Shown here: in pieces, positions 1,620 to 27,357 of the stretch
How positions within the stretch are numbered: the first letter of the stretch is position 1
How the letters are laid out: each line of letters begins with the position of its first letter
Source of the DNA: Alphaproteobacteria bacterium
Lineage (GTDB): Bacteria; Pseudomonadota; Alphaproteobacteria; GCA-2731375
DNA length: 49,316 nt
Reading direction: 5' to 3'
NCBI GenBank assembly: GCA_021776235.1
Contig: JAJFGG010000075.1
Coordinates: 1-49,316, forward strand
Translations under genes and position numbers: made by a program
The notes under the pieces: model-generated
Databases searched by the model: none
What the model was told of the DNA's origin: nothing
The model's input: only the letters and a program-made list of their open reading frames with translations

Positions 1620-2342
1620 ATGGCGAAGCTTGATCGCGATACCTTCGAGCGGCGGACGGGCATCCGCTCCGCCGACTATGATCAGCTCAAACAGATCCCC
1701 CTTTTCGCCGGCATGACCGACGACACCATCATGAATCTGCTGGTGGACGCCACCGCGCGGCGCTATCCCCGCGGCACCTCGTTATTCATGCAGGGGGAAC
1801 AGGCGGATCGTTTCTTTGTCGTTCTCGAGGGCTGGGTCAAGGGCTTCCGCCAGGCCCCGGATGGCCATGAAAGCGTGATCGCGGTGTTCGGCCCTGGCGA
1901 ATCCTTCGCTGAAGCGGCAATGTTCGTGTCCGGTAATTTTCCCATCAGCACGGAAATCGCGGCTGACGCGCGGCTGCTGGTGATACCGCGCAGCGGCTTG
2001 TTGAACCAGTTGCGCGAGGACCCCGATATCGCCCTGAAGATGCTGGCCTCCATGTCGCGCCGCCTGCGCGGGTTCGTCCAGCAGGTGGAGCAGTTGACGG
2101 TTAAATCGGCGACCCAGCGTCTGGCGGCCTTCCTGGAGAAACTGGTCGATGTTGAAGCCGGGCCAGACGAATTCCAGCTGCCCCTGGACAAAATGCTGAT
2201 TGCCGGCCGCCTGGGTATGCAGCCGGAAACCTTGTCCCGGGCCCTATCCAAGCTACGTTCCATTGGGGTGGCGACCGAAGGGCATCGGGTCATCGTCAAG
2301 GATGTCGCGGCCCTGCACGCCATCAACGACGACGATGAATAG
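1620..2342 (+). CDS. Crp/Fnr-family transcriptional regulator
   Basis: A 240-residue protein with an N-terminal cyclic-nucleotide-binding-type beta-roll (about 25-145: IPLFAGM, FMQGEQADRFFVVLEGWVKGF, GESFAEAAMF), a dimerisation helix, and a C-terminal winged helix-turn-helix (about 175-235; recognition region GMQPETLSRALSKLRSIGV). There is no N-terminal cysteine cluster as in Fnr, so direct [4Fe-4S] oxygen sensing is unlikely. The layout fits Dnr/Nnr-like or other Crp-type sensors. It lies 103 bases upstream of a molybdoenzyme operon and is its most likely regulator (inference from position). A 15-bp imperfect tandem repeat (ATGGCTAT-type units, 1562-1591) precedes it. Confidence 0.9.
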   Translation: MAKLDRDTFERRTGIRSADYDQLKQIPLFAGMTDDTIMNLLVDATARRYPRGTSLFMQGEQADRFFVVLEGWVKGFRQAPDGHESVIAVFGPGESFAEAAMFVSGNFPISTEIAADARLLVIPRSGLLNQLREDPDIALKMLASMSRRLRGFVQQVEQLTVKSATQRLAAFLEKLVDVEAGPDEFQLPLDKMLIAGRLGMQPETLSRALSKLRSIGVATEGHRVIVKDVAALHAINDDDE

Positions 2343-2445
2343 CGCCCTGATGAATCTAATCGGCCGGGAGGGGTGCCGATATGGTACCTAGTAATGACCT
2401 AACAATTCGTGATGGCCACTCGAACAGCAGACCAGGGGATTGGCG

Positions 2446-5166
2446 ATGAGCACGACAAAAAAAGTTCCGCAATATTGTTATCAATGCGTCGCCGGGCCGG
2501 ATTTCCTTACCGTCAAGGTCGAGGACGGCGTGGCGACGGAGATCGAGCCGAACTTTGCCCTGGCGGATGTCCACCCAGGCGCCGGCAAGTCCTGTGTCAA
2601 GGCCTACGGCCTGGTGCAAAAGACCTACAATCCGAACCGCCTGCTGACACCAATGAAGCGGACCAACCCGAAGAAGGGGCGGGATGAAGATCCCGGCTTC
2701 GTGCCTATTTCCTGGGACGAGGCCCTGGGCATGGTGGAAGGGAAACTCAAGGAGATTCAGGCCAAGGGTTTGTACGATGAATTGGGCTATGCCCGCGTCG
2801 CCGCCTCGTTCGGCGGCGGCGGCACGCCGACGTATTATATGGGGACTTTTCCGGCCTTTTTGGGCGCCTGGGGCGCGGTTGATTTCAGTTTCGGTTCAGG
2901 GCAGGGGGTGAAATGCACCCATTCCGAACATTTGTACGGGGAGTTGTGGCATCGCGCCTTTACCGTATCCGCCGATACACCAACGACGAACTATATTCTG
3001 TCATTTGGCGGCAATCCGGAAGCCTCCGCCGGGGTGATCGGCATTTCGCGGCATGCAGATGCACGGGCGCGCGGGGCCAAGCGGGTGCAGATCGAACCGC
3101 ACCTGTCGGTTACCGGGGCCTGTTCGGCGGAATGGGTGCCGATCCGGCCGAAAACCGATCCCGCCTTCATGTACGGCCTGATCCACGTGATGCTGCACGA
3201 AATGCCCCGGGAACGGCTGGACCTGGAATTCCTCACCGATCACACAGGTTCGCCCTATCTGGTGGCGCCGAACGGCTATTTTCTGCGTGATCCGGTAACC
3301 CACAAGCCGTTGATGTGGGACAACACCCGGGGCGCCGCCGTAACCTTCGATACGCCGGACATAAAACCGGCCCTGGAGGGCAGCTTCACCGTCTCGGGCG
3401 TTGAAGTCGGTGCCGATGGCGAGGAATGGCAGCACGAAGCGATCGAGGTGCAGACCGCGTTCAGCCATCTGGTCAAACAGATGGCGCAATACACCCCGGA
3501 ATGGGCCGAGGAGATTTGCCAGGTACCGGATGGCTGCATACGCCGCATCGCCGATGAATTTGTCTCGCATGCCCAGGTTGGCGACACCATAGAGATCGAT
3601 GGCGAAGTCCTGCCCCTGCGGCCCGTGGCGGTCATTCTGGGCAAAACGGTCAACAACGGCTGGGGCGGATATGAATGTTGCTGGGGGCGTACTTTGCTGG
3701 CCTGTCTGGTCGGCTCGTTGGAGGTGCCCGGCGGCACCCTCGGCACCACGGTACGTCTGAACCGGCCCGCCACAACGCGTCAGGCCAGCGTCATCGGCGG
3801 CCCGGACGGCTTCATGCAATACCCCATGAATGCGACGGACAAGGAAGGCTGGCAGGAGACGCCGAAGGCCCGAAACGCCCACGATACCCTGGTGCCATTG
3901 TCGGCCTCTTCACCGTGGAGCCAGGCCCTGGGCCCGACCCACCTGGCCTGGATGTTCCGCAAGGAAAGTCCGGAAAACTGGCCAGAGGTCTCGGCTCCTG
4001 ATCTGTGGTTCGTCTATCGCACCAATCCGGCGATCTCGTTCTGGGATACCAAGGCGGTGACCGAGCGGATCGCCGAATTCCCCTTCATTGTCTCGTTCTG
4101 TTACATCCGGGACGAAACCAATCATATGGCGGATGTTCTGCTACCCGAATGCACCGATTTTGAAAGCACCCAGCTTATCCGGGTCGGCGGCACAAAGTTC
4201 ATAGAAAGTTATTGGGATCACGAAGGGGTCGCCCTGCGTCAACCGGCCATCAAGCCCCTGGGCGAGACCCGGGATTTCACCGATATCGCCACCGAGCTGG
4301 CGGAGCGCGCCGGTATTCTGGATAAATATAACAATGCCATCAACCGCGGTGCCGGCGGCGTGCCCTTGCGTGGCGGCAACTATGACTTCAGCCTGGATAT
4401 TGAACAGAGCCATGGTGCGGAAGAGATCTGGGACGCCATGTGCCGGGCAGCGTCGGCCGAATTGACCGACGGCGCTGAAACCGATGGTTTGGACTGGTAC
4501 AAGGAGCATGGCATTCGTACCCGGCCGATCTCGCGCCTGATCTGGTATCTGTTCCCGGAACTGCGCAAAAAGGGCCTGCGCTTTGAAATGCCTTATCAGG
4601 AACAGCTGTACCGGGTCGGCAAACAACTGGGCAATCGTTTGCACGAAAAAGGCATCGAATGGTGGAACGAACAACTCAAGGAATACGAACCCTTGCCGCC
4701 CTGGAAGGATTTTCCAGGCATCTGGGAACAGGCCACGGTGAATTCCGGCGGCGCGTTGGCGGACTATCCCTTCTGGCTGCTGACCTCGCGCAGCATGCAA
4801 CTGGCCTGGGGCAGCAACAGCTCGATCCAGATGATCGACGAGGTGGCGAAGAACATGCGCGGCCACAGGGCGGTCGTCATGAACGCCGGCCGGGCGGCGG
4901 AAATGGGCATCGAGGACGGCGATCTGGTGGAGATCAATTCGACCTTGCGCGGCACCAAGGGCCGGGTCGTGCTGAAACAGGGCATCCGGCCCGATACGAT
5001 TTTGATCCAGGGCCAGTTTGACCATTGGGTCACGCCCTATTCAAAGGACAATCCCGCCCCCAGCATGAATACCGTCGTGCCCATGTCCTTGGCCCTGACC
5101 GACGCCACCGGGTCGGCGGCCGATATCGTCCGGGTCGCGGTGAAACGTCTGGAGGGCCCGGCGTGA
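2446..5166 (+). CDS. Molybdopterin oxidoreductase catalytic subunit (PadB-like, DMSO reductase superfamily)
   Basis: A 906-residue catalytic subunit of the Mo/W-bisPGD superfamily. N-terminal iron-sulfur segment: C11-x2-C14 and C50-V-K; the third cysteine expected about four residues after C14 is absent. The molybdopterin domain follows (PISWDEAL at 87-94), with KCTHSEH at 156-162, where C157 is a candidate metal ligand. The C-terminal dinucleotide-binding domain has WLLTSRS, AEMGIEDGDLVEI and QGQFDHWVTPYS. There is no twin-arginine signal, so it probably faces the cytoplasm. The sequence style and the order catalytic/FeS/anchor recall phenylacetyl-CoA:acceptor oxidoreductase (PadBCD), but no phenylacetate genes are nearby. 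ATG 2446 is chosen over TTG 2440 because of AGGGGAT at 2434-2440. The stop overlaps the next start (GTGA). Confidence 0.85.
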   Translation: MSTTKKVPQYCYQCVAGPDFLTVKVEDGVATEIEPNFALADVHPGAGKSCVKAYGLVQKTYNPNRLLTPMKRTNPKKGRDEDPGFVPISWDEALGMVEGKLKEIQAKGLYDELGYARVAASFGGGGTPTYYMGTFPAFLGAWGAVDFSFGSGQGVKCTHSEHLYGELWHRAFTVSADTPTTNYILSFGGNPEASAGVIGISRHADARARGAKRVQIEPHLSVTGACSAEWVPIRPKTDPAFMYGLIHVMLHEMPRERLDLEFLTDHTGSPYLVAPNGYFLRDPVTHKPLMWDNTRGAAVTFDTPDIKPALEGSFTVSGVEVGADGEEWQHEAIEVQTAFSHLVKQMAQYTPEWAEEICQVPDGCIRRIADEFVSHAQVGDTIEIDGEVLPLRPVAVILGKTVNNGWGGYECCWGRTLLACLVGSLEVPGGTLGTTVRLNRPATTRQASVIGGPDGFMQYPMNATDKEGWQETPKARNAHDTLVPLSASSPWSQALGPTHLAWMFRKESPENWPEVSAPDLWFVYRTNPAISFWDTKAVTERIAEFPFIVSFCYIRDETNHMADVLLPECTDFESTQLIRVGGTKFIESYWDHEGVALRQPAIKPLGETRDFTDIATELAERAGILDKYNNAINRGAGGVPLRGGNYDFSLDIEQSHGAEEIWDAMCRAASAELTDGAETDGLDWYKEHGIRTRPISRLIWYLFPELRKKGLRFEMPYQEQLYRVGKQLGNRLHEKGIEWWNEQLKEYEPLPPWKDFPGIWEQATVNSGGALADYPFWLLTSRSMQLAWGSNSSIQMIDEVAKNMRGHRAVVMNAGRAAEMGIEDGDLVEINSTLRGTKGRVVLKQGIRPDTILIQGQFDHWVTPYSKDNPAPSMNTVVPMSLALTDATGSAADIVRVAVKRLEGPA

Positions 5167-5813
5167 CCCGCTATGTGATGGTTGCCGATCTGCGCCGCTG
5201 CGTCGGTTGCCAGACCTGTACGGCGGCCTGCAAGCATGCCAACGCGACACCGCCCGGGGTGCAATGGCGCCAGGTGCTGGATATGGAAACCGGCACCTAT
5301 CCCCAGGTGCAACGCACCTTTGTGCCGGTCGGCTGCATGCATTGCGCCGATCCGCCCTGCGAGCATGTCTGCCCCTCCACGGCGACCAAGATCCGCCCCG
5401 ACGGCATTGTCGAGATCGATTATGATCTGTGCATTGGCTGTGGCTATTGCGCCGTGGCCTGCCCCTATCAGGCCCGCCATATTGTCCACAAGCGGGATCT
5501 GGCCTACGACAAGCAGGCCATGGCGCACGAAGACGCGCGTTTTGACGAGGGACGTATGTCCGTAGCCATGAAGTGCAATTTCTGCCAGGGCCGTATCGAT
5601 ACCGCCAAGGAGACCGGGCAAACCCCTGGCGTCGATCCGGAGGTGACCCCGGCCTGCGTCAATTCCTGCATTGCCGATGCCCTGCATTTTGGTGACCGCG
5701 ATGATCCCAACAGCAATGTCTCGGCCCTGTTGGCGGAGAACCAGACCTTCCGCATGCACGAGGAACTGGGGACGGATCCGGGTTTCTATTACATCTGGGA
5801 CAAGAACGAATGA
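5163..5813 (+). CDS. Ferredoxin-like 4Fe-4S electron-transfer subunit (PadC/DmsB-like)
   Basis: A 216-residue subunit with four cysteine clusters typical of DmsB/NrfC/PadC proteins: C13-x2-C16-x2-C19-x3-C23; CMHCADPPCEHVC around 57-70; CIGCGYCAVAC around 90-100; and a split last cluster (KCNFCQGR ... CVNSC). It would carry four [4Fe-4S] clusters and pass electrons between the molybdenum subunit and the membrane anchor. The GTG start at 5163 overlaps the TGA of the catalytic subunit, and its own stop overlaps the anchor start (ATGA, 5810-5813), indicating translational coupling. The open frame extends further upstream, but that part overlaps the catalytic gene and lacks family features. Confidence 0.9.
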   Translation: MTRYVMVADLRRCVGCQTCTAACKHANATPPGVQWRQVLDMETGTYPQVQRTFVPVGCMHCADPPCEHVCPSTATKIRPDGIVEIDYDLCIGCGYCAVACPYQARHIVHKRDLAYDKQAMAHEDARFDEGRMSVAMKCNFCQGRIDTAKETGQTPGVDPEVTPACVNSCIADALHFGDRDDPNSNVSALLAENQTFRMHEELGTDPGFYYIWDKNE

Positions 5814-6718
5814 GCCGTATTGAACCCTGGCACCAGGTCAATTGGGACTGGCGCGCCGCCGGCAACTTTATTGGCGGCGGCAGCGGCACGGGGCTGGTGA
5901 TCCTGGCGGCGCTGGCCGCCGGCCAGGGAACCACTTATTGGCCATTGGGTTTTCTCGGCGTCATTCTGGTCGGCATCGGCCTGTTTTGCGTCTGGTTGGA
6001 GATCGGCCGTCCCTGGCGCGCGCTGCATGTCTTCTATCATCCGCAGACCTCGTGGATGACCCGTGAAGCCTTTGTTTCGGCCCTGCTGTTGCCCGTTACG
6101 ATGGTGGCGGCCCTCGCTTCATCGCCATTCCTTTTTGAGCCCGCCGTCGCCAAGGGTGCGATCTGGCTGGCGGCGCTGCTGGCCGCGCTTTACCTTTATT
6201 GTCAGGCCCGCATTCTGCACTGCTCGAAAGGTATTCCGGCCTGGCGGCATCCCAGCCTGATGCCGGTCATCATCCTGACGGGCTTGACGGAAGGGGCGGG
6301 CTTTTTGCTGATGGGGACCGCCCTGGTCGGCGGTCATTTTGTATGGCCGCTGCTGTTGTTGTTGATCCTGCTATTGGGACGCTGGATGGCCTGGCGCCGC
6401 TACCTGGCGAACCTTGCGGAAACCGGCGCGCCGAGCAAGGCCTTGGCGGTCCTGAACGGGGCCACGCCGATGATCAATATTCTGGGACATTATGCGGCGT
6501 CCATCCTGATTGTGCTGGCTCTGCTCACCGGTGCATTTGGTCCTCTGTTCGCGGCCCTGGCCGGCCTGGCCGCTATTGCCGGCGGCTGGCAGATGAAATT
6601 CGTCGTCGTCGCCCGCGCGGCCTTCAATCAAGGCTTTGCCCTGCCCCTGACCCCCGTACGCGGGACCGGAAAGCCCGGCCCGGCTGACAAGCCCGGTTGG
6701 AGCAAGAGCGGGCCGTAA
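5810..6718 (+). CDS. Membrane anchor subunit of molybdoenzyme (PadD/DmsC/NrfD-like)
   Basis: A 302-residue polytopic membrane protein with about eight hydrophobic helices, in the position and size of DmsC/PadD anchor subunits. Recognisable features are WRAAGNFIGGGSGTG near the N terminus and EIGRPWRALHVFYHPQTSW near residues 65-85, the latter typical of this anchor family. It should bind quinone and link the catalytic and iron-sulfur subunits to the respiratory chain. It is coupled to the preceding gene by a 4-bp overlap. No heme-binding motif is obvious. Confidence 0.85.
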   Translation: MSRIEPWHQVNWDWRAAGNFIGGGSGTGLVILAALAAGQGTTYWPLGFLGVILVGIGLFCVWLEIGRPWRALHVFYHPQTSWMTREAFVSALLLPVTMVAALASSPFLFEPAVAKGAIWLAALLAALYLYCQARILHCSKGIPAWRHPSLMPVIILTGLTEGAGFLLMGTALVGGHFVWPLLLLLILLLGRWMAWRRYLANLAETGAPSKALAVLNGATPMINILGHYAASILIVLALLTGAFGPLFAALAGLAAIAGGWQMKFVVVARAAFNQGFALPLTPVRGTGKPGPADKPGWSKSGP

Positions 6719-6720
6719 TT

Positions 6721-6993
6721 ATGACGGTGCTGATCAGCGCCCCCCATTGGCAGGCTGACGACGGCTGCCACATTGATGTCCGGGGTTTGCCCGCGCCGCA
6801 GCCCATGCTGCAAATTCTCGCTCTGCTGGAAACCGTGGCTGGGGGCGGGGTGATTGTGCATCACGACCGCGAACCGATCTATCTGTATCCGGAATTGACG
6901 GAACGGGGCTGGAACCACGAAATCGTGCCGGGCGAGGCCGGCGAGGTTCGCCTGCGCCTGTGGCGCGACAATGCTTATACCAATGGTCATTGA
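6721..6993 (+). CDS. DUF2249 domain protein
   Basis: A 90-residue protein made almost entirely of a DUF2249 domain: DVRGLPAPQPMLQILALLE, then HHDREPIYLYPELTERGW. The fold is related to TusA/SirA-type small proteins. DUF2249 genes are often found next to hemerythrins, NnrS-like proteins and Fnr/Dnr regulators in denitrifiers and relatives, but the biochemical role is unknown. ATG 6721 is preferred to the in-frame ATG 6697, which lies inside the upstream gene. It begins 2 bases after the anchor subunit stop, so it belongs to the same transcription unit. Confidence 0.85.
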   Translation: MTVLISAPHWQADDGCHIDVRGLPAPQPMLQILALLETVAGGGVIVHHDREPIYLYPELTERGWNHEIVPGEAGEVRLRLWRDNAYTNGH

Positions 6994-7011
6994 TAATAGA
7001 CCGGTCGCTGC

Positions 7012-8298
7012 ATGAGCCTGGGCGCGACCTCGTTCCTGGGCAGCGCGGGGGACCGTCTGCTGCCGCTATCCGTGCCCTTTCGGTTTTTCGGCGCGGCCGT
7101 GCTGTTCCATCTGGCGGCCTGGGCGGTCCTGGTGGCCGGCGCCGGCGAGCTGGCGGCTTTCAGGGGCGGCGCTGGACCGGTGCTGGCGGCGGTTCATCTG
7201 ATGACCCTGGGCGTGTTCGTGATGACCGCCATGGGCGCCAGCCTGCAACTGCTGCCTGTCGCCACCCTGCAGGGCTTTGCCGCGCCGGCCAGGATCAACG
7301 CCATTTGGTGGTTGCTGAACATCGGCACCATATGTCTGGCCGCCGGCATGTACCTGGCCTGGCATCAGGCCATGGTGGCCGGGGGCGTCGCGCTGAGCCT
7401 GGCCATAGCCCTCTATTTGCAGCTGTTGCTGGGTAATTTGCGCCGTGGCGGCGCCATGGCGGCGGTGGTCGCCCATGGCTGGCTGGCGGCCGCTGCCTTG
7501 ATTGGTTTGTTGCTCCTCGGCCTGATCCTGATCGCTAACCAGGAGCATGGCTTTCTGGCCGATGCGCAGCGCGCCGCCGTGAGCCATATGTTATTGGCGG
7601 CCTATGGCTTCATGGGCTTGCTGGCCATGGGTTTCAGCTATGTCCTGGTGCCGATGTTTGCCCTGGCGCCAATGCCCTCGGACAGATGGGCCCTGGCGGC
7701 CCTGCTTTGCACCTGCGCCGGCTTGGCCTTGGGGCTTGCGGGCACCTGGTTTGGCCAGGATGTCTGGGCCGCGGTAGGCGGCGGCATCGGCCTGGCCGGC
7801 GCTGCCCTCTATCTGGGCTTGATGGCAATGACCTTGAGACAAAGGATGCGCAGGAAACTGGGCCCGGCATTCATTATGATGCGCTTGTCATGGGCCTTAT
7901 TGCCTTTGAGCCTGTTCAGCGGCATCGCCTGGGCCCTGGACTTGCTGCCGGACTGGGGCGCGGTGTTATTCGGCCTGTGGTTGCTGGGCTGGTTGCTGGG
8001 CTTTCTGTTGGCTATCCTGCAAAGGATCGTGCCGTTCCTGGCGTCCATGCACGCGGCCCTGGCCATGAAACGCCGCCCCCCCACCGTGACCGCGTTGACG
8101 GCCGCGGGCCCGCTTGCCGCGCATCTTTACTGTCATTGTGCGGCATTGATATTGCTATCTGCCGGCATCGCCTGGGCCATGCCCGTTCTGGTGAGCCTGG
8201 GCACCCTGGCGGGGCTGTTGGGCGCGGCGTCTTTCGCGTGGTTCTTTCTGTTGGCGGTGCTGAAGTATCGGGCCGCCCTCAAGGCGCCGTCTGCTTGA
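7012..8298 (+). CDS. Polytopic membrane protein, NnrS / heme-copper oxidase subunit I-like
   Basis: A 428-residue protein with about twelve transmembrane helices. Conserved-looking histidines lie near helix ends (HLAAW near 25, HLMTLGVFVMTAMGAS near 62-75, SHMLLAAYGFMG near 190, and a late CHCAALI). The style resembles NnrS-type heme proteins and the diverged heme-copper-oxidase subunit I family found near nitric-oxide genes. I cannot assign a reaction. It is 18 bases downstream of the DUF2249 gene and in the same direction. Possible roles are nitric-oxide tolerance or heme-based sensing (inference). Confidence 0.6.
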   Translation: MSLGATSFLGSAGDRLLPLSVPFRFFGAAVLFHLAAWAVLVAGAGELAAFRGGAGPVLAAVHLMTLGVFVMTAMGASLQLLPVATLQGFAAPARINAIWWLLNIGTICLAAGMYLAWHQAMVAGGVALSLAIALYLQLLLGNLRRGGAMAAVVAHGWLAAAALIGLLLLGLILIANQEHGFLADAQRAAVSHMLLAAYGFMGLLAMGFSYVLVPMFALAPMPSDRWALAALLCTCAGLALGLAGTWFGQDVWAAVGGGIGLAGAALYLGLMAMTLRQRMRRKLGPAFIMMRLSWALLPLSLFSGIAWALDLLPDWGAVLFGLWLLGWLLGFLLAILQRIVPFLASMHAALAMKRRPPTVTALTAAGPLAAHLYCHCAALILLSAGIAWAMPVLVSLGTLAGLLGAASFAWFFLLAVLKYRAALKAPSA

Positions 8299-8373
8299 CC
8301 ACGATCAATGAAGCCCGCCACGGGATGTGGCTATCCTCCGTCTCGTTGCCGTTGCTGATGTTGGGATCGACGA

Positions 8374-8874
8374 ATGTACCATGATAGCCATATCGCCCAG
8401 GTGCTGCACGACGAGCATCTTCGGATCATTGATCTGATGAATCGTCTGGAAGGCTTTACCACGGGCCGCAAGGCGAAGAATGCCCCCGACCTTGATAATG
8501 CGGTGGCGTCGACCCTGTTGGCCGACCTGAACGCGGAATTGCAGGGTGTGGCGGGGCATCATTTTGATTTCGAGGAAAAGCAGATCTTCCCTGCGTTGAC
8601 GGCCATTGGTGACGTTGCAATCCCGCATATGTTGCGCCAGGAACATGATCTGCTGCGTAATCTTTCAGAGGTCATGTTGCCCATGGTGCAGAAAGCCCGC
8701 GGTGATGGTTTCACGGCCGATGATTGGGGCACGTTCCGCGACCTGGCGTTGGAATTGGTGGAACGGCAAATCACCCATATCCAGAAAGAAGAGATGGGCC
8801 TTTTGCCGGTCTTGAGCGAAGTGTTCGAAGAACAACAGGATGGCGAACTGGCGCTGCTCTTCGCCGAGGCGTAG
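8374..8874 (+). CDS. Hemerythrin domain protein
   Basis: A 166-residue four-helix protein with the diiron-ligand pattern of the hemerythrin HHE family: VLHDEH near 10-15, GHHFDFEEKQIFP near 60-73, PHMLRQEH near 85-92, and HIQKEEMGLLPVL near 130-143. Hemerythrins bind O2 or NO, or supply iron for repair of iron-sulfur centres. The start ATG 8374 has GGGA eight bases upstream. It closes the co-directional cluster that starts at 1620, which fits a role in handling oxygen or NO around the molybdoenzyme (inference). Confidence 0.88.
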   Translation: MYHDSHIAQVLHDEHLRIIDLMNRLEGFTTGRKAKNAPDLDNAVASTLLADLNAELQGVAGHHFDFEEKQIFPALTAIGDVAIPHMLRQEHDLLRNLSEVMLPMVQKARGDGFTADDWGTFRDLALELVERQITHIQKEEMGLLPVLSEVFEEQQDGELALLFAEA

Positions 8875-26200: not shown

Positions 26201-27357
26201 GCGACGAGGCGCGCCATTTCGTTCTGGTAGCGGGTGAGGCATCGGGCGATGTTTTGGGTGCAAGGTTGATCGCCGCCCTTCGCCAGCGTTACCCCGGGAC
26301 GCTGACATTCAGCGGTGTTGGTGGCGCGCTGATGGCGGGGCAGGGCCTGGACAGCCTGTTCCCCATTTCTGATTTATCGGTCATGGGATTGGCTGAAATA
26401 TTGCCGCGTGTACCCCTGTTGCTGCGGCGCCTGCGGCAGACCGCAGAGCATGTCAAAGCGGCCCAACCAGCCGCCTTGATCACAATCGATGCGCCGGGCT
26501 TCTCCTTTCGGTTGGCGAAACGTCTGGCCGGCGAAGGGATCCCCCTGATCCACTACGTAGCGCCCCAGGTCTGGGCCTGGCGGCCGGGCCGGGCGCGACA
26601 TCTGGCGGGGCAGATTGATCACCTGTTGGCCCTGTTGCCGTTCGAGCCGGAATTCTTTCGCGACTATGACCTGCCGTGCAGATTTGTCGGACATCCGGTC
26701 ATCGAAGGCGTAGCCGAGACGCCGGGCAACGGGCCTGAGTTTCGGCGGCGATTGGCGATACCTGCCGATGCGCCCGTGCTGGCCATGCTGCCCGGTAGCC
26801 GTGCCGGCGAGGCCAGCCGTCTGTTGCCGATTTTCGCGGACGTTGCCGCCTTGCTATATGCCCAGCGGCCCGGCTTGCAGGTGGTTATCCCAACCGTGGA
26901 ACAGGTCGCCGGTGTGGTCGCGGCCGCCGTTGCGGCCTGGCCCATGACAACCCATGTGGTTGAAGGCGCGACCGGCCGGGCGGATGCGTTTGCCGCCGCC
27001 GGTGCGGCGCTGGCGGCCTCCGGCACGGTGTCTTTGGAATTGGCTTTGCGCGGCGTTCCCACCGTGGTGGCCTATCGCACCAATCCGGTTACCGCCGCAT
27101 TGGTGCGCCGCATGCTGATCATACCACATGTGGCCCTGCCCAACATCCTGGCGGAGAAAGCGGTGCTGCCGGAGTTCCTGCAGGAGAATTGCCGGCCGGA
27201 ACCCATTGCCAATGCCTTGGCGCAATTGCTTGACGACCCCGAGCAGCGCTTGAGGCAAAGGCAGGAGCTGGCGCACGTCGCGGAGATGCTGGGGCAGGGC
27301 GGTACCTTGCCAAGTTTGCGCGCCGCTGACGCCGTGCTAGAAATCGTCGCTGATTGA
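26197..27357 (+). CDS. lpxB: Lipid-A-disaccharide synthase, probable CTG start
   Basis: A GT19 glycosyltransferase joining UDP-diacylglucosamine and lipid X. The family N-terminal motif FVLVAGEASGD lies upstream of the first ATG/GTG/TTG-type codon (TTG 26254) and would be lost with that start. In frame, CTG 26197 sits in a CTGA overlap with the lpxI stop and has GGGAGA (26185-26190) six bases upstream. From CTG the protein has 386 residues, close to the E. coli length. Other motifs: HYVAPQVWAWRPGRA near 125-139, LPGSRAGEA, and SGTVSLELALRGVPTVVAYRTNP. The gene call is firm; the CTG initiation is inference. Confidence 0.9.
   Translation: MSDEARHFVLVAGEASGDVLGARLIAALRQRYPGTLTFSGVGGALMAGQGLDSLFPISDLSVMGLAEILPRVPLLLRRLRQTAEHVKAAQPAALITIDAPGFSFRLAKRLAGEGIPLIHYVAPQVWAWRPGRARHLAGQIDHLLALLPFEPEFFRDYDLPCRFVGHPVIEGVAETPGNGPEFRRRLAIPADAPVLAMLPGSRAGEASRLLPIFADVAALLYAQRPGLQVVIPTVEQVAGVVAAAVAAWPMTTHVVEGATGRADAFAAAGAALAASGTVSLELALRGVPTVVAYRTNPVTAALVRRMLIIPHVALPNILAEKAVLPEFLQENCRPEPIANALAQLLDDPEQRLRQRQELAHVAEMLGQGGTLPSLRAADAVLEIVAD

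Follow-up and report, generated by a model that had tools for sequence, protein, structure and literature searches.

A PadBCD-type oxidoreductase joined to a nitric oxide-linked gene trio in an alphaproteobacterium

The 49,316-nt stretch of DNA analysed here (the window) carries genes for a known kind of enzyme, PadBCD, but their setting is absent from the literature we searched: they are joined to a trio of genes linked to nitric oxide (NO), encoding a DUF2249 protein, a membrane protein and a hemerythrin HHE protein. The same trio accompanies anaerobic aromatic genes in several families, suggesting an aromatic chemistry that is shielded from, or switched on by, NO. We read the whole locus, with more confidence than doubt, as an arylacetyl-CoA:quinone oxidoreductase that serves the anaerobic route through benzoyl-CoA, together with a module for NO protection or regulation.

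Layout and conservation of the locus

Seven open reading frames on the + strand form the cluster. The first-pass annotation had described it as one tight unit, and the GTGA and ATGA overlaps and the 2-base and 18-base gaps on which that description relied were verified. Adjacent genes for a molybdenum subunit, an Fe-S subunit and a DmsC/NrfD-type anchor were found with Pfam models, which bears out its proposal of a three-subunit PadBCD-like enzyme. The features are as follows.

1097 to 1510, + strand: RidA-family protein (PF01042), the conserved upstream neighbour
1620 to 2342, + strand: Crp/Fnr-family regulator, 240 aa, with no Cys and the helix motif E..SR (PF00027, cNMP_binding; PF13545, HTH_Crp_2)
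2446 to 5166, + strand: PadB-like molybdenum catalytic subunit, 906 aa (PF00384, Molybdopterin; PF01568, Molydop_binding; tree)
5163 to 5813, + strand: PadC-like Fe-S subunit with a GTG start (Fer4 models), in GTGA overlap with the preceding stop codon
5810 to 6718, + strand: PadD-like membrane anchor of DmsC/NrfD type (DmsC PF04976, 26.2 bits against a cut-off of 22.3), in ATGA overlap
6721 to 6993, + strand: single DUF2249 protein, 90 aa (PF10006, 51.1 bits against a cut-off of 29.5), after a 2-base gap
7012 to 8298, + strand: 12-helix membrane protein with a predicted heme-copper oxidase fold (AF2 model), after an 18-base gap
8295 to 8308, + strand: FNR/DNR-type palindrome TTGACCACGATCAA, preceding the hemerythrin gene, its left half overlapping the stop codon of 7012-8298
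8374 to 8874, + strand: hemerythrin HHE diiron-type protein, 166 aa (PF01814, 59.3 bits), after a 75-base gap

The hemerythrin gene is followed by dnaE. Relatives of the catalytic subunit turned up at 17 loci when named genomes were scanned, and the enzyme is present in all ten other same-genus genomes searched (86-94%; three are fragments). The linkage is conserved, as the first-pass annotation needed it to be: the full order regulator-padBCD-DUF2249-membrane protein-HHE was found in five of the nine full-length rows of the window's own subclade (the window, L002, L003, L005 and L012), and such a conserved gene order is not chance. The trio is absent next to padBCD in L004 and L006, the contig of L014 stops within the Fe-S gene, and the regulator is absent beside padB in L006 and L014. 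The RidA gene lies upstream in L002, L003, L005, L006, L007, L012, L014 and L015, and is absent there in L004. L007 has the same order minus the Fe-S and anchor genes; at its positions 5126-5153 the catalytic match is followed by DUF2249 about 27 bases on, and the missing genes reflect either a genuine loss or an assembly fault. The relatives are recorded as MAGs, and isolate names given for some of them point to the Black Sea, Saanich Inlet, the Arabian Sea and the Caspian (habitats read from names). The host is a nitrate-reducing and probably marine bacterium.

The PadB-like enzyme and its pathway

In a quick tree of 45 rows (midpoint root, no outgroup, without a characterised PadB), the catalytic subunit of the window falls inside the 27-row clade I (SH-aLRT 100) and, within it, in a 17-row subclade (support 99) together with the PadBs of L009, L011 and L017; the other clade, of 18 rows, includes a 59% paralogue from the same genome. 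For this tree, L110 was dropped as a copy of L007 (same contig), and L008, L013, L015 and L018 were excluded as partial; L105 and the second copy in L104 are absent from the 45 rows. In L009, L011 and L017, PadI (822-829 bits, cut-off 700) lies about 5 kb downstream of padB on the same contig; padE and padG of these loci were named by reading L017, PadI alone being tested there by a family model. Clade I has 18 rows that lie outside the window's own subclade, and at least 13 of them adjoin PaaK, PadI or benzoyl-CoA reductase genes. Among the same 18 rows, a homologue of an FlK-type thioesterase was found near padB in 16 and a PaaK homologue in 10, both families being named from the proteins of L119, whose PaaK lies just below the TIGR02155 cut-off (612 versus 646 bits). 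The thioesterase (e.g. L119 11377-11784 and L010 9525-9968) is a candidate for the hydrolysis of phenylglyoxylyl-CoA.

The catalytic subunit is 69-71% identical to the PadBs with PadI some 5 kb downstream, and the Fe-S subunit is 74-80% identical to those of the PadI-linked L009, L011 and L017. C11, C14 and C50 of the catalytic subunit are invariant in 29 rows. Columns were compared among three window-subclade, three PadI-linked and 15 other clade-I rows, taking only columns fixed in both threes: 542 columns were fixed and equal between the two threes, and the window subclade departs at positions 516, 554 and 809 from the residue that is kept in at least 14 of the 15 other rows. So few subclade-specific departures argue for the same reaction. 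The AF2 model of the catalytic subunit (pLDDT 78, under 50 at 151-175) matches Mo-bisPGD enzymes, with PcrA, ArrA and PsrA first (Z 22.5-23.2), tied with formate dehydrogenases. In local alignments, the Cys residues of ArrA and PsrA that we take to be their Mo ligands fall opposite S or G of the window motif FGSGQG; because of this, and of an unreliable model of the active-site loop, the call of a Mo ligand from sequence or model was abandoned. No annotated PadB was matched in the plasmid collection at E 1e-100.

The 59% paralogue (G000:C108) was considered as the true PadB of the genome and rejected, since it sits in the other clade. In its locus (L028, G000:C108:17500-37400), the paralogue is followed by a single ORF for both smaller subunits and is divergent from genes for a thiolase, a DUF35 protein, a CoA ligase, a UbiD-family decarboxylase (354 bits, cut-off 245) and a TPP enzyme. 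This locus is conserved in the genus, L104 having two tandem PadB copies, and would encode an uncharacterised, probably aromatic route.

Elsewhere in the genome of the window, contig C85 carries the order ferredoxin-BcrD-BcrA-BcrB-BcrC facing KorA-KorB, with scores above the family cut-offs (in brackets): BcrB 803 bits (487), BcrA 718 (578), BcrC 660 (421), BcrD 449 (313) and KorA 542 (483). C85 also carries a gene of the indolepyruvate oxidoreductase family (1581 bits, cut-off 816), and the genome encodes NapA (1592 bits, cut-off 931). In this genome, which is 98% complete, no PadI was found over the cut-off (best 108 versus 700 bits) and no PaaK closer than 33%, the sole homologue of that identity, at C106, scoring 222 versus 646 bits for TIGR02155. 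One thioesterase homologue (49%) is kept beside thiolase-, acyl-CoA dehydrogenase- and CoA transferase-like genes (assigned by eye). The first-pass annotation had described a cluster without any phenylacetate genes, which is true of the locus and fails for the genome, in view of bcrCBAD-korAB and the indolepyruvate oxidoreductase-family gene. It had also suggested that the substrate may be new, unless the enzyme lay inside characterised PadB and phenylacetate genes lay elsewhere in the genome. The clade and the benzoyl-CoA genes were found, PadI and a close PaaK were not, and a new substrate was rejected as the leading reading on the tree and the neighbouring genes.

Thus placed by sequence, the enzyme is well supported as a PadBCD-type oxidoreductase of arylacetyl-CoA, a known kind, for which we infer both substrate and electron acceptor. 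The enzyme (2446-6718) would form the 2-oxo acid from phenylacetyl-CoA or one of its hydroxylated relatives, electrons passing through the Fe-S subunit and the membrane anchor to the quinone pool. In a Rhodospirillales-like host that reduces nitrate, it would thereby feed the anaerobic benzoyl-CoA pathway. Candidates for the step from the 2-oxo acid to the benzoyl-CoA level are KorAB and the Ior-type protein, and an oxidoreductase of either type would probably replace PadEFGHI there. According to the available part of one report, phenylpyruvate can pass directly to phenylacetyl-CoA via IorAB in Aromatoleum (PMC9765128), and therefore a ligase may not be needed. Genes of the pad type and bcr of this type do not always occur together, because BcrB over the cut-off is absent from the genomes of the three PadI-linked loci (G008, G010 and G016). 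Two same-genus genomes, G173 (L008/L201) and G174 (L006/L200), have padBCD with no BcrB and no trio beside padBCD.

The trio and its regulator

The DUF2249 protein of the window is the sole DUF2249 match in its genome. A role as TusA-type sulfur carrier was rejected, since its TusA match is below the cut-off and none of the 12 aligned DUF2249 proteins has a Cys at the TusA-like CPxP position. The hemerythrin motifs HF.FEE and HIQKEE are kept in 12 of 12 aligned proteins, and neither an ScdA_N domain nor a RIC family match was found in the hemerythrin at E ≤ 0.001.

For the membrane protein (7012-8298), no Pfam family was found over the cut-off. It had been labelled NnrS-like, a label that we drop: PF05940 was not matched at E ≤ 1 by the window protein or three relatives, nor at E ≤ 0.01 by any of 20 aligned members, and the predicted model instead has the fold of heme-copper oxidases. 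This AF2 model (pLDDT 91.8, 12 long helices) matches cbb3 subunit I (8smr_E; VIA Z 35.5, rmsd 2.9 over 388 residues) and cNOR (Z 34.2 to 4xyd_A and 31.5 to 3o0r_B). No PDB chain was found with the sequence profile of the family, hhalign gave no relation to NorB, and in the L113 member a COX1 match is below the cut-off; the fold of heme-copper oxidase subunit I is thus that of the predicted model only. Oxidases with this fold rely on an HxH motif in helix X and an HH motif in helix VII. The membrane protein has invariant H62, H192 and H375 in helices II, VI and XI, whereas its helix X lacks HxH and its helix VII lacks HH. As far as the model goes, it is therefore unlikely to be a respiratory oxidase or an NO reductase; it may bind heme or NO.

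The best NCBIfam match of the regulator is FtrB (148 bits), under the cut-off of 211. Seven of eight regulator orthologues, that of the window included, have no Cys, and the L007 orthologue has one. An FNR oxygen sensor needs cysteines for its 4Fe-4S cluster; with no Cys, the regulator of the window cannot carry this cluster, and identity with O2-sensing FNR was ruled out. The first-pass label of an Fnr-type regulator thus stands for the family and falls for the oxygen sensor. We take the helix pattern E..SR to be FNR-like, for a TTGA half site. The regulator, a Cys-free Crp/Fnr protein, is probably of the DNR/NNR kind and would be the activator of the unit.

The sole match to TTGAYN4RTCAA in the 49-kb window is the palindrome at 8295-8308, where 0.17 were expected and 15 of 100 shuffles gave at least one. 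It stands at the same position before HHE in five of six genomes compared (window included, L007 being the exception), with identical half sites and a variable spacer. Its weight is lowered by the overlap of its left half with the preceding gene's stop codon. In the window, neither the stretch from regulator to enzyme nor that before the regulator gave a palindrome at up to two mismatches. Four further FNR-type palindromes with one mismatch lie at 26476, 32481, 33518 and 34010 of the window, making five in all at this level on the + strand versus 0.35 in simple shuffles.

In other genomes, the trio follows padBCD-paaK in L119 and L121 and lies between hcrCAB and bcr in L191, and DUF2249 and the membrane protein alone come after padBCD-paaK-hcrCAB in L113, at the end of the stretch examined. 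HcrA was over the cut-off beside the module in both L113 and L191. In the same-genus genome G169 the trio adjoins bcr-kor (L199), with BcrD, BcrA, BcrB and BcrC all over their cut-offs. On plasmid p4 of Azospirillum brasilense Sp7 (L240) it adjoins norCB (NorB E 1e-204 to 4xyd), in agreement with the earlier view that the trio is linked to NO metabolism. In L198, norCB lies 4-6 kb upstream of the module and no HHE was found; in L190 and L196 the module occurs with Crp genes and with no aromatic genes in the stretch examined. Between the membrane protein and HHE of L119 there is an Fe-S assembly gene (2954-3253; PF01883, SufT-like).

Co-occurrence was counted for the membrane protein rather than for all three genes. 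The searches for PadB, the membrane protein and BcrB each covered 385 genomes of the class, treated as one set, with few top candidates per genome scored. The membrane protein was found in 16 genomes and BcrB in 15, with both in 10 (P 1e-12); when the window's own family is excluded, the numbers are 12, 11 and 6 of 381 (P 1e-7). A PadB relative of either clade occurs in 18 of the 385, accompanied by the membrane protein in 10 and by BcrB in 13, and outside the own family these pairs fall to 6 and 9 of 381. At the level of families, the membrane protein and bcr overlap in five families out of 9 and 9, with P between 1e-5 and 2e-4 according to the family total that is assumed (100 or 170) and with kinship above the family level ignored, as in all these statistics. 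Of the 16 genomes in which the membrane protein occurs, six lack both bcr and any PadB relative.

Proposed role and comparison with known systems

Fe-S clusters abound in benzoyl-CoA reductase and the enzymes that feed it, and many bacteria run these enzymes during nitrate respiration, so that they may make NO internally. To our knowledge, how these enzymes are protected from NO is not settled. From the company of the trio and the fold of its membrane protein, we infer that the DUF2249 protein, the heme-copper-fold protein without the usual helix X His pair and the diiron-type hemerythrin would form a separate conserved NO-linked module, which probably shields Fe-S and Mo enzymes from damage by NO or at iron centres, or aids their maturation, during nitrate respiration; the DNR/NNR-kind, Cys-free Crp/Fnr regulator probably turns the unit on. 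In its specific form, that denitrifying anaerobes attach the trio as an NO-handling defence module to the NO-vulnerable PadBCD, Hcr and Bcr, the idea is a tentative one. If it is true, the defence unit would let ring-reducing Fe-S chemistry proceed while the cell itself makes NO. The question is approachable, since the trio is conserved, its partners can be tested singly and a named strain, Azospirillum brasilense Sp7, has the trio beside norCB; moreover, DUF2249 gains a functional context, as does a membrane family with the heme-copper-oxidase fold for which Pfam has no name. In literature searches, which left most subscription journals outside, nothing was found that pairs DUF2249 with benzoyl-CoA reductase, that combines DUF2249, NnrS and hemerythrin, or that combines phenylacetyl-CoA, benzoyl-CoA reductase and hemerythrin. 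Benzoyl-CoA reductase, hemerythrin and nitric oxide occur together in one paper, on a Geobacter genome (PMC2996986).

The missing PaaK and thioesterase genes at the locus could be the sign of a true change of substrate, to another CoA ester or a carbonyl compound. Neither gene was found beside padB in any of the nine rows of the window's subclade, and the lack of a PadI over the cut-off and of a close PaaK in the genome also fits such a change. However, we consider it unlikely: the catalytic subunit is 69-72% identical to PadI- or PaaK-linked PadBs of Betaproteobacteria, only three subclade-specific departures from otherwise kept residues appear in the tested columns, the genome itself has bcrCBAD, and a thioesterase homologue is retained elsewhere in the genome in 11 of 11 same-genus genomes searched, the window's own included.

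We take COG4309 to be DUF2249. In partially available sources, a COG4309 gene is co-transcribed with nor and its relevance to NO reductase is suggested (PMC1274295), four DUF2249 genes of a haloarchaeon are up under denitrification (PMC11218638), and the DUF2249 proteins DrpA and DrpB of Thermus are reportedly needed for the nitrate response and for full nitrate reductase activity, the drpAB mutant having little of this activity though the subunits are made (PMC6282519). On the model of DrpA and DrpB, the trio might be regulatory only and not protective. A nitrate- or NO-responsive device of this sort, controlling or maturing the Mo enzyme, would agree with the L119 protein, in which DUF1858 is followed by two DUF2249 stretches, close to the order DUF1858-DUF2249-DUF2249 given for DrpB in that part of the source; it leaves the hemerythrin, the heme-copper-fold partner and the norCB neighbourhood unexplained, and we find it doubtful. 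Quite improbable, in our estimate, is an accidental neighbourhood, in which genes of one FNR/DNR regulon came to adjoin without joint function. The modules of L190 and L196, and the trio of G169 standing at the bcr locus (L199) and not at the pad locus (L004), are what such an accident would give, but the bcr and pad sites of G169 belong to the same pathway in the genus. Moreover, the trio is found with pad, hcr or bcr genes in three further families of the class (L119, L121 and L191), two of its genes are found with such genes in L113, a member of the taxonomic order to which the Rhodocyclaceae MAG L017 belongs, and the family-level co-occurrence with bcr points the same way.

The reading as an arylacetyl-CoA oxidoreductase with an NO-linked module can be set against known systems. 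Like PadBCD of Thauera aromatica and of the Aromatoleum pad cluster, the window enzyme has a Mo, an Fe-S and an anchor subunit, the identities being to PadI-linked relatives and not to a characterised PadB; unlike it, the window locus is without padI, paaK and the thioesterase and is joined to a Crp/Fnr gene and the trio instead. NnrS (PF05940) is a multi-helix membrane protein of NO-linked gene sets, and the window protein is likewise multi-helix and NO-linked, but 20 of 20 members lack the Pfam match. With CcoN and NorB, subunits I of heme-copper oxidase and cNOR, the window protein shares the fold of its model but not the His motifs of helices X and VII. As in RIC/YtfE and hemerythrin-like NO proteins, the window HHE keeps its His and Glu motifs, though with no ScdA_N or RIC match. 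For COG4309 beside nor in rhizobia and Betaproteobacteria, a predicted tie to NO reductase and NnrR/NsrR control is shared, whereas the available part of that source names no linkage to pad, hcr or bcr (PMC1274295). A parallel in layout is DrpA/DrpB of Thermus thermophilus, where, in the part available, DUF2249 genes also adjoin a membrane Mo-bisPGD respiratory enzyme (PMC6282519), and where DrpB resembles the L119 arrangement; in the window, by contrast, the partner is an aromatic-acid oxidoreductase, and heme-copper-fold and hemerythrin proteins are added.
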